64,000 nucleotides of DNA from assembly GCF_030464365.1 (NCBI RefSeq), contig NZ_VCYI01000015.1, positions 1 to 64,000 on the forward strand, given 5' to 3'. The stretch comes from Methanoculleus methanifontis (lineage in GTDB: Archaea > Halobacteriota > Methanomicrobia > Methanomicrobiales > Methanoculleaceae). A program made the translations under genes and the position numbers. The notes beneath the pieces were generated by a model that ran no database searches, was not told where the DNA came from, and was given only the letters and a program-made list of their open reading frames with translations. Below are positions 3,536 through 6,077 of this stretch, one piece after another. Positions within the stretch are counted from its first letter, which is position 1. Each line of letters starts with the position of its first letter.

Positions 3536-3811
3536 TTACTGTGGCGGCCCGGGGGGCCACCTGCGCCTGTCGAGAACCTGCGGACAGACGAACAGCACGT
3601 CCACGGGAGCATGGATATAACTGCAGTAGGCGCACCCGGGATCGTAATACATGCATGAAGTGCATCCCCACTGTTGCGGCTTCCCCTCTCTCTCCAACCG
3701 AGAGTCTCCCATTTCTGCATCGTGCAACGTATATATATCCCGCTCCTGGGCCTCGGGGTATTGAGCATCGGGGTTACTCTTCACCGGATCGCTGTCGTCA
3801 GGTGATCTCAT
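3536..3811 (-). CDS. Small cysteine-rich hypothetical protein
   Basis: 91 residues from the ATG at 3811; the open frame extends to 3871. The C-terminal half holds a cysteine cluster (CTSCMYYDPGCAYC) suited to binding a metal or Fe-S centre, and ends in a basic, Pro-rich tail. The N-terminal half is acidic and low in complexity. Support for a real gene comes from the promoter. The sequence just upstream on this strand has a 14-base palindrome at 3859-3872 followed by an AT-rich TATA-like segment, the same arrangement as in front of the neighbouring UbiA gene. There is no clear ribosome binding site. Function unknown. Confidence 0.4.
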   Translation of the reverse strand: MRSPDDSDPVKSNPDAQYPEAQERDIYTLHDAEMGDSRLEREGKPQQWGCTSCMYYDPGCAYCSYIHAPVDVLFVCPQVLDRRRWPPGPPQ

Positions 3812-3858
3812 GTTGTACCGTAAGATGCTCTCCCCGGCTGCCAGACATTTATTGTGTT

Positions 3859-3872
3859 GATGAAGATTCATC
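3859..3872. promoter_or_regulatory. Palindromic operator-like site, copy 1
   Basis: GATGAAGATTCATC, a perfect 6+6 inverted repeat around a 2-base centre. It lies between the end of the UbiA gene and the small cysteine-rich gene, just upstream of an AT-rich TATA-like segment on the minus strand. The identical 14-mer recurs at 4848-4861. Confidence 0.55.
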
Positions 3873-3896
3873 TCTTCAACGAATCTTCGGGGCTAT

Positions 3897-4808
3897 TCAT
3901 ACTGGAAGATAGGGTAATGCGACGACGAGCAGATAGAGGATGACGGCCAGCAGGATGAACTCTCCATCGGTAAACAGCTCGAAGAGGAGTTTTTCTTTTC
4001 CTAACCATTGAAAGCACAGGAGGTATCCCTGGGCGTAGACCGTGCCCGCAGCCAGCACCAGCACCAGATGGAAACCCCCCAGGAGCCCGCCGGCAAGCAC
4101 CAACGCGGCTCCGACCGTCACGTTCATCGCCGTGAGGAGATAAAGCGTCTTTTTGGAACCGAGGATCGTCGGGATCGTCCTGACGCCGGATAAAACGTCC
4201 CCTTCCTGGTCGCGCATATCGTAGACCACCGTGTTTGTGAAGGTCTGTACGAGGAAAAAGATGCCGACGAGGCTGGTGGCGGCACTCACGGGAAGGCCGG
4301 CATGGCAGATCGGCAGGAACGTCGCGGGGAGTGTCCAGGAGAACGCAACAATCAGGCTTTTCATGAACGGCACCTCTTTCAGTCGCCGGAACCCAAATCG
4401 GGCTGGGAAGAGAGGTACGCTGTAAACGATTCCGGCAAGCAGGGGTATGGTTGTGATGAGCAGGCTGCCGAGCCCATGGTAGGCGGAGAGGCAGAAAGCA
4501 AGGATGAAGGCAGAGATTGCAGAATGGAAGAGGATGGCTTCGTACTTCTTCGTGAACGAGTAGCGTTCTGCATGGTTGACTGCATCTTCGTCCTCGTCGG
4601 TCTTGCGATTGAGGTTGTAAACGGCAAACACGACGAGTGCCAGGATCGCCGTGGCAACCGGATCGAAGGGGAGACCCTGCAGAAGGCACGAAATGTACAC
4701 CATCGCCGCCATCATGGCAGCGGTATACAGGGAACTGTATACGATGAGGTGGACGATGATCTGACAGGCCGGTTGAACCACGTTGATGCGATTTGCATAT
4801 CCGAACAT
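3897..4808 (-). CDS. UbiA-family prenyltransferase
   Basis: 303 residues with about eight or nine membrane segments. UbiA enzymes move a prenyl chain onto an aromatic or glycerol acceptor using two Asp-rich, Mg-binding motifs. Here the first is NRKTDEDED (N-x3-D-x3-D spacing kept) and the second is YDMRDQEGD. It differs from the DGGGP synthase at 28301, so a quinone-like, haem or other lipid acceptor is possible; I cannot tell which. It has its own AT-rich promoter overlaid with a GATGAA palindrome (4829-4873). An identical palindrome follows the gene. Confidence 0.85.
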   Translation of the reverse strand: MFGYANRINVVQPACQIIVHLIVYSSLYTAAMMAAMVYISCLLQGLPFDPVATAILALVVFAVYNLNRKTDEDEDAVNHAERYSFTKKYEAILFHSAISAFILAFCLSAYHGLGSLLITTIPLLAGIVYSVPLFPARFGFRRLKEVPFMKSLIVAFSWTLPATFLPICHAGLPVSAATSLVGIFFLVQTFTNTVVYDMRDQEGDVLSGVRTIPTILGSKKTLYLLTAMNVTVGAALVLAGGLLGGFHLVLVLAAGTVYAQGYLLCFQWLGKEKLLFELFTDGEFILLAVILYLLVVALPYLPV

Positions 4809-4828
4809 GGAGTGTTTTTCAGAAAACC

Positions 4829-4873
4829 GATGAATATTTATTACTCCGATGAAGATTCATCACCCTGATGAAT
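4829..4873. promoter_or_regulatory. UbiA promoter with GATGAA operator cluster, copy 2
   Basis: On the minus strand, upstream of the start at 4808, an AT-rich TATA-like stretch (about 4832-4843) is preceded by the perfect palindrome GATGAAGATTCATC at 4848-4861. Two further GATGAAT half-sites lie at 4829-4835 and 4866-4872. A repressor or activator dimer bound there would touch the TATA box. The palindrome is identical to the one at 3859-3872. Confidence 0.55.
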
Positions 4874-5064
4874 CGAGACGTTCGGCTGCGACCTTCTATA
4901 AAAAGGCCTTTGTATTGCGCCTTTTCCTCTCCCTGCCTGTGAAAATAGGTTGTTGGAAAAAGTGCCACCTGAATCCTGGCAGGTCTTTCATCCCCGGGAT
5001 CGTAGAGTTAACGCTATACTGTGAGCCGCTTTCTAATCCGGGTGATTAAAATCTGGAAAATGGA

Positions 5065-5892
5065 TTACTGAGATATCTTCAGTAATCGGGAGTCCACTTT
5101 ATAGTGCTGGAAGAGCCTCTCACCCCAGGAAACCGCCGCCGCATCGGTACCGACGAGATCGGTGGCGGCGTCATACTTACCTGTATCGCGTCTGTATAGG
5201 CCTAACGACAGATAACCATCGCTCACCGTCAATCCCAGACGGATCGGCGAAGGAGAGACGTATATCTTGAAGTTAGCATATCTGCTCAGGGGTTCCAGCA
5301 TGGCGCTATACGGTTCGTCGTCCAGTCTCCGGGCGAGTTCTTCGGTGACGATGAGTTCCGCGGGCCTGCCTTCCATGACTATACCCTTAACCTCATCCGC
5401 AAGAAGTGGACTCATAATCGATGAGACGCTGTGGATCCACGATGCTTTTCGGAGTATGGCATGAAATGCCGCATACACGGCAAAAACGTCCTCTTCAATA
5501 TTCTTTACCGCCTCAGTGTGGTAGAGGCACTCCAGATTGTTCAACAGCTCAGGGGGTATGCCCTCGATCTCGTGTTCGATCCAGAAGTCCCTGTGGCGCT
5601 GGAGCGCCCCCATGAGCGTAACCAGCCGCTCGATCTCCGGTTCAACGAGCCTGCCCATGGCAGTGAGCGCATAGTCGCCGCGTATCGATTCGACGTAATG
5701 CAGGGCCTCGAGCTGCCGGATCTTCGGGATGAGCGCCTGCGATGAACTTCCTGTGATGTCACGGAGGGTCGAGAGCGGTTTGCTCCCGCTGCCGAGGGCA
5801 ATCATCACCTGCGTCAGCAGTCTCGACCGGAAGATCGCCTGAACGTCGTCATGGAACTCGGTATAGATCTCGAGGGGAGATATTTCGTTCAT
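5065..5892 (-). CDS. FilR1-like winged-helix regulator (DUF1724)
   Basis: 275 residues from the ATG at 5892; an in-frame extension to 6096 overlaps the divergent promoter region and looks non-coding. Residues 15-85 form a winged helix-turn-helix (GSSSQALIPKIRQLEALHYV). The remainder is the DUF1724 domain known as the middle domain of the methanogenesis regulator FilR1, with RPAELIVTEELARRL. Proteins of this family are transcription factors of Euryarchaeota, especially methanogens. It is divergent from the metallo-beta-lactamase gene at 6078 and might control it or itself. Its target is not visible here. Confidence 0.85.
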   Translation of the reverse strand: MNEISPLEIYTEFHDDVQAIFRSRLLTQVMIALGSGSKPLSTLRDITGSSSQALIPKIRQLEALHYVESIRGDYALTAMGRLVEPEIERLVTLMGALQRHRDFWIEHEIEGIPPELLNNLECLYHTEAVKNIEEDVFAVYAAFHAILRKASWIHSVSSIMSPLLADEVKGIVMEGRPAELIVTEELARRLDDEPYSAMLEPLSRYANFKIYVSPSPIRLGLTVSDGYLSLGLYRRDTGKYDAATDLVGTDAAAVSWGERLFQHYKVDSRLLKISQ

Positions 5893-6077
5893 TGTTCTTA
5901 TTGTTAAGCGGTGCCGGTCGATGCATATCATCCTTTCTATTCCTGCGCGCTCTTGCCATCCGCCGTTCCTCTCCTTCTGCCGGCCGATCGCCCGCATGCC
6001 CGGAACGCCGGGTATGATGCCGATGCCCGACCTCATCACACTTATAGCCCGAGCGCCCTTTACTTGTATTGAGAGTA

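Follow-up and report, generated by a model that had tools for sequence, protein, structure and literature searches.

To our knowledge, DNA sites are known for few methanogen regulators. Regulators of the Msr group act on methyltransferase genes. MsrC and MsrX of Methanosarcina acetivorans are described as combining a helix-turn-helix (HTH) with a DUF1724 domain (PMC11784639). FilR1 of Methanosaeta harundinacea is presented as having an ArsR-related DNA-binding domain and as binding promoters and up-regulating them; a REC receiver domain and a partner kinase are also described for it, and its targets are methanogenesis genes (PMC3991700). HdrR of Methanosarcina barkeri carries a winged helix at its N-terminus and is an activator that binds a conserved palindrome-bearing region of its target promoter (PMC11218639).

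The locus described here lies in a window (the whole stretch analyzed, 64,000 nucleotides) from Methanoculleus methanifontis, where the minus strand carries, in order, a regulator gene (5892-5065), a box, a UbiA gene (4808-3897), a second box, and a small ORF (3811-3536). This arrangement is likely to be a local transcription-control cassette, in which the adjacent regulator binds the box and has the two genes under its control, probably by activating them. The features are as follows.

3536-3811, minus strand: predicted small Cys-rich protein gene, 91 aa (from orthologues, alignment, and core pN/pS)
3844-3885, minus strand: Box 2 (small-ORF promoter), with ATTCGTT at 3878-3884, the palindrome at 3859-3872, and TATA-like AATAAATGTC at 3844-3853; model match E 1.5e-9
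3859-3872, no strand assigned: palindrome copy on the small-ORF side, read directly from the letters
3897-4808, minus strand: UbiA-family prenyltransferase gene, 303 aa; Pfam PF01040 E 1.7e-16; Asp motifs NRKTDEDED and DMRDQEGD
4829-4835, plus strand: fourth half-site GATGAAT, between the TATA and the UbiA start
4833-4874, minus strand: Box 1 (UbiA promoter), with ATTCATC at 4867-4873, the palindrome at 4848-4861, and TATA-like AATAAATATT at 4833-4842; model match E 4.5e-11
4848-4861, no strand assigned: palindrome copy on the UbiA side, read directly from the letters
5065-5892, minus strand: regulator gene, 275 aa, with a predicted N-terminal winged helix-turn-helix and a FilR1_middle effector domain; candidate reader of both boxes

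The preliminary description had reported two identical 14-mers, each just upstream of a minus-strand TATA-like stretch, one before the UbiA gene and the other before the Cys-rich ORF. Both copies of GATGAAGATTCATC were found at 3859-3872 and 4848-4861, and in each case the TATA-like box follows 5 bp downstream on the minus strand. Of the additional GATGAAT half-sites, that at 4829 is correctly placed, but the one given as 4866 actually begins at 4867. The UbiA promoter half-sites (TTCATC) at 4829, 4848, and 4867 are phased at exactly 19 bp, and arrays with the same phase also occur in other genera. The palindrome as a site is real and conserved, but the operator comprises three half-sites and not one palindrome. 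The full element, ATTCATC-N5-GATGAATnTTCATC-N5-AATAAATgT, is larger than the 14-bp palindrome and aligned without gaps in 19/19 UbiA promoters and 24/25 small-ORF promoters of Methanoculleus and one further genus (G036/G037), the sole small-ORF exception being the second copy in G037; the box is thus conserved in relatives beside orthologues of both genes. In Box 2, the third half-site is degenerate (minus-strand ATTCGTT, 3878-3884). Four of the genomes with the regulator lack UbiA (G002, G008, G015, and G027), and there the regulator is followed directly by the box and the small ORF. In Methanoculleus and G036/G037, 27-28 nt separate the TATA-like element from the UbiA start; in most other genera the distance, taken from the 42-bp box, is 24-25 nt. 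With a start so close, the UbiA mRNA would be nearly leaderless.

Throughout the own genome (2,611,534 bases), the exact pattern GATGAANNTTCATC occurs only twice, both times at this locus, whereas a pattern with 12 fixed bases would be expected by chance at ~0.16 places in a genome of 2.6 Mb; the site is therefore not one that is frequent at random positions. With up to two mismatches, the window alone yields four matches against 2.1 expected, which is unremarkable, so the significance of the palindrome rests on its exact copies and their conservation. Over the 35 genomes of the genus the exact pattern was found at 17 places in 12 genomes, 14 of them at the UbiA/small-ORF locus and the remainder in G023 (one) and G028 (two); a backward control pattern was found at one place. 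A sequence-only model of the box (R1), built from 33 of 42 distinct sites, was then scanned over the same genomes. At E<=5.4e-5 it recovered all 40 expected sites (18 UbiA and 22 small ORF) and one in G032; recovery was not surprising because the majority of these sites had gone into the model, and the informative part is the gap below them, the next match being at 0.0017. Beyond its two boxes the own genome has no R1 match better than 0.167, and the circuit therefore looks dedicated to two genes. The two-promoter regulon proposed earlier is strongly supported by the rarity of exact sites and by the presence of the box at both promoters across relatives.

Further R1 sites occur elsewhere in the genus, weak third sites in G018, G007, and G026 and a strong one in G032 (E 5.5e-7). 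All precede genes for orthologues of a single secreted protein, to which nothing in the own genome matched at E<=1e-20. This protein of 681 aa (L185:6349-8487; G018:C13, G007:C1, G032:C33; GHSSHFMTDIGNPMHTG), preceded by a weaker copy of the box, by eye resembles a zinc-dependent phospholipase C or P1 nuclease; its only Pfam match is Flg_new_2. In G032, whose genome is 90% complete, the box precedes the secreted-protein gene without the regulator.

The small ORF had been predicted to be a real, co-regulated gene, a prediction that is strongly supported. It is a real gene, judging from its orthologues in 22/35 genomes of the genus (with matches in 24/40 of the family and 26/232 of the order) and its core, CxxCxYYDPxxxYCxYIxxPVxxLFVCPQxL, which is present in 24/25 loci with pN/pS 0.28. 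The conserved start is the ATG at 3811; the listed ORF start at 3871 falls inside the palindrome. Codon-position bias is weak over the first 84 codons, and clear constraint is limited to the Cys-rich core, so the N-terminal half is less well supported. An alignment of 15 sequences has C53, C63, and C76 invariant and C50 nearly so, a pattern that would fit metal or Fe-S binding. The predicted structure was unusable (pLDDT 46), and no sequence relative in the PDB was found at E<0.5.

UbiA matches its Pfam profile with 60.7 bits (cut-off 34.2), and among the 20 rows listed, NxxxDxxxD is present in 18 and DxxDxxxD in 17, the others being cut or split genes; we take these two Asp-rich motifs to be the catalytic motifs of UbiA prenyltransferases. 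Assignment as the archaeal membrane-lipid GGGP geranylgeranyltransferase was rejected, the NCBIfam equivalog cut-offs being missed by far (36.8 vs 296 bits; 25 vs 353). It thus has both motifs but is far from the archaeal lipid enzyme models. Orthologues occur in 18/35 genus genomes, all among the 22 that have the small ORF and the regulator. Separately, several genus genomes have a distant FilR1-like regulator convergent with a distant UbiA paralogue (L099:5088-6415, L098:6655-7982), and the box was not found at these pairs.

The regulator gene lies just upstream of UbiA and is present in exactly the same 22/35 genus genomes as the small ORF, with presence cut at E<=1e-50 and leaving aside a partial copy at the end of a contig in G024. 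Its FilR1_middle (PF08350) match, a family of which DUF1724 is presumably the older name, has E 1.4e-28 and 99.9 bits against a cut-off of 27; at the N-terminus, HVO_A0261_N scores 26.7 bits, below its 35-bit cut-off. In the structure model, the DNA-binding part has predicted helices and a wing at pLDDT below 50, and the effector domain resembles phospholipase-D folds. The best fold match of this low-confidence model was TrmBL2 (PDB 5bpi; E 5.5e-8, 14% identity, TM 0.38), and a PDB sequence search found no relative. The genus alignment contains no palindrome in the regulator's own promoter, which counts against the proposed circuit. Upstream of the regulator, at window positions 5893-5960 on the minus strand, is a strongly conserved stretch, GAATRGAAAGGRTGATATGYGTCGACCGGCACCTCTTA, that is unlike the box.

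Over the order, the regulator profile has matches in 84/232 genomes (E<=1e-50). We took 33 regulator loci for an order-wide test and counted 32 of them, outside the genus cassette set. The one dropped, L235 (G122:C159, 3097 bases), is a Methanoculleus-like cassette on a short contig in a genome of another family, and is either misbinned or a recent transfer. An operator scoring >=15 bits was present in 26/32 loci versus 3/160 shuffled sequences, and none of 21 control loci reached this score, the highest being 8.6. The six loci with no operator comprise three near contig ends, two distant paralogues, and one second copy in G036 (L214, L220, L236, L237, L238, and L242). Where UbiA accompanies the regulator, the box lies upstream of it in 21 of 23 loci; of the two exceptions, L220 starts at the edge of its contig, and in L232 UbiA is preceded by no more than a weak box. 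The linkage is kept where gene order changes to UbiA-regulator, and the box marks regulator-linked UbiA genes across the order.

By genome, R1 at E<=0.003 finds the box in 60/232, and 57 of these 60 have the regulator, the three that lack it at its cut-off being G032, G062, and G231. Outside Methanoculleus and G036/G037, the box is present in 33/60 regulator genomes versus 2/135 that are regulator-free. The Fisher values for the association are 1.7e-29 and 1.5e-18, but because the genomes are related these are not true probabilities. Counting against the link, no box was found at E<=0.003 in 27 of the 84 genomes that carry the regulator, and the second copies of the regulator and small ORF in G037 (L103) and G036 (L237) have no good box. 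Targets outside the genus, named by eye from sequence, are a mixture of CcdA-like membrane proteins, response regulators, secreted proteins, and sensor kinases, with no redox theme common to them; the shared metal or redox theme suggested in the preliminary description is conjectural. Where the regulator has no UbiA nearby, in two genomes from a single genus, the box precedes a CcdA-like membrane protein (L226:5243, L239:5012). Three loci have a second box after UbiA, followed by a conserved stretch with no clear ORF (L212:5963-6250, L213 minus from 3079, L211:5905-6100); this is possibly a non-coding RNA. Rfam gave no match on seven loci, these stretches included.

One residue of the predicted recognition helix, A53 in the regulator of this locus, covaries with one operator base. 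Among 26 loci, 20 have Ala as the residue following SQ and six have Ser/Thr; at base two of GATGAAT the Ala loci carry A (19 loci) or G (one), whereas all six Ser/Thr loci, which are drawn from three families, carry C. The best-scoring operator of each locus was used, a choice that matters little for this base in multi-half-site loci like L223 and L227; the loci share ancestry, so the number of independent events is below the number of loci. No box was found at the four paralogues whose helices are clearly different (L098, L099, L236, and L238).

Gene conservation and co-occurrence, the order-wide linkage, and the covariation of helix with operator together make it highly likely that the adjacent regulator binds the box directly. 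That the box is instead read by another, unlinked regulator, its neighbor being linked for a different reason, is quite unlikely; such a reader would account for boxes without the regulator in G032, G062, and G231 and for the two second cassette copies without a good box, but not readily for a regulator in 57/60 box genomes, for linkage that survives the change in gene order, or for the covariation. The fixed distance from the TATA-like element could also be that of a mere extended core promoter for the basal machinery, but with two such sites only in 2.6 Mb and a box whose presence follows one regulator, this seems very improbable. Identical 14-mers only 1 kb apart might likewise suggest chance, or recent duplication of one promoter; that is scarcely credible, as the two copies have different flanks, what follows each TATA box is conserved in its own right, and both boxes are maintained in two genera; the genus scan and the comparison with shuffled sequences contradict it as well.

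The cassette reading would then run as follows. The regulator would bind ATTCATC-N5-GATGAATnTTCATC, the operator of three half-sites that directly precedes each of the two weak TATA boxes, and this would bring UbiA and the gene for the small Cys-rich protein under joint control. As the operator lies immediately before the BRE/TATA region, with its center ~41 bp upstream of the inferred start, the bound regulator would most likely help recruit TBP/TFB. That it activates rather than represses is the reading we favor, with some reserve, from the box position, TATA boxes that look poor by eye, and the description of FilR1 and HdrR as activators. Repression by the same regulator, through blocking of the BRE/TATA or use of the extra half-site downstream of the UbiA TATA, is possible but doubtful: a gap of 5 bp between palindrome and TATA-like element leaves room for overlap with the BRE, and at UbiA a fourth half-site does lie between TATA and start, but in most relatives this half-site is degenerate (minus-strand TTCACC), and it is absent at small-ORF promoters; the weak TATA boxes and the two activating systems also speak against it. 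A wider view, an order-wide isoprenoid-linked regulon in Methanomicrobiales, is speculative and rather unlikely. In it, the FilR1-family regulator would sense a prenyl- or lipid-related metabolite linked to the orphan UbiA through its phospholipase-D-like effector domain and, from operators of half-sites phased at 19 bp, activate UbiA and lineage-specific helpers (the small Cys protein, the CcdA-like protein, secreted proteins, and response regulators).

A description of the UbiA/small-ORF regulon was not found in the literature searched (Methanoculleus regulators, Methanomicrobiales UbiA, and FilR1_middle/DUF1724). The comparative evidence ties regulator, operator, and core target together across an order, down to one testable residue-base pairing. 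It also offers a way to approach an orphan UbiA enzyme, and a small Cys-rich ORF that had no name becomes a real gene with a defined control circuit. The 275-aa regulator shares the FilR1_middle family with FilR1 but differs in having no receiver (REC) domain matched in the Pfam scan and in its linkage to UbiA. Like HdrR, it is encoded beside its likely target, has a predicted N-terminal winged helix, and would bind a palindromic promoter element and activate, a likeness of described features and not of sequence family, but the HdrR target is hdrBCA (PMC11218639). The Msr regulators share its predicted HTH and DUF1724 architecture, and are likened to it by domains rather than by DNA sites. With TrmBL2 it has in common a predicted winged helix and an effector domain, although the PDB entry is titled an archaeal chromatin protein and not a local regulator. 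The regulator family is already known, and the circuit is of a familiar kind.
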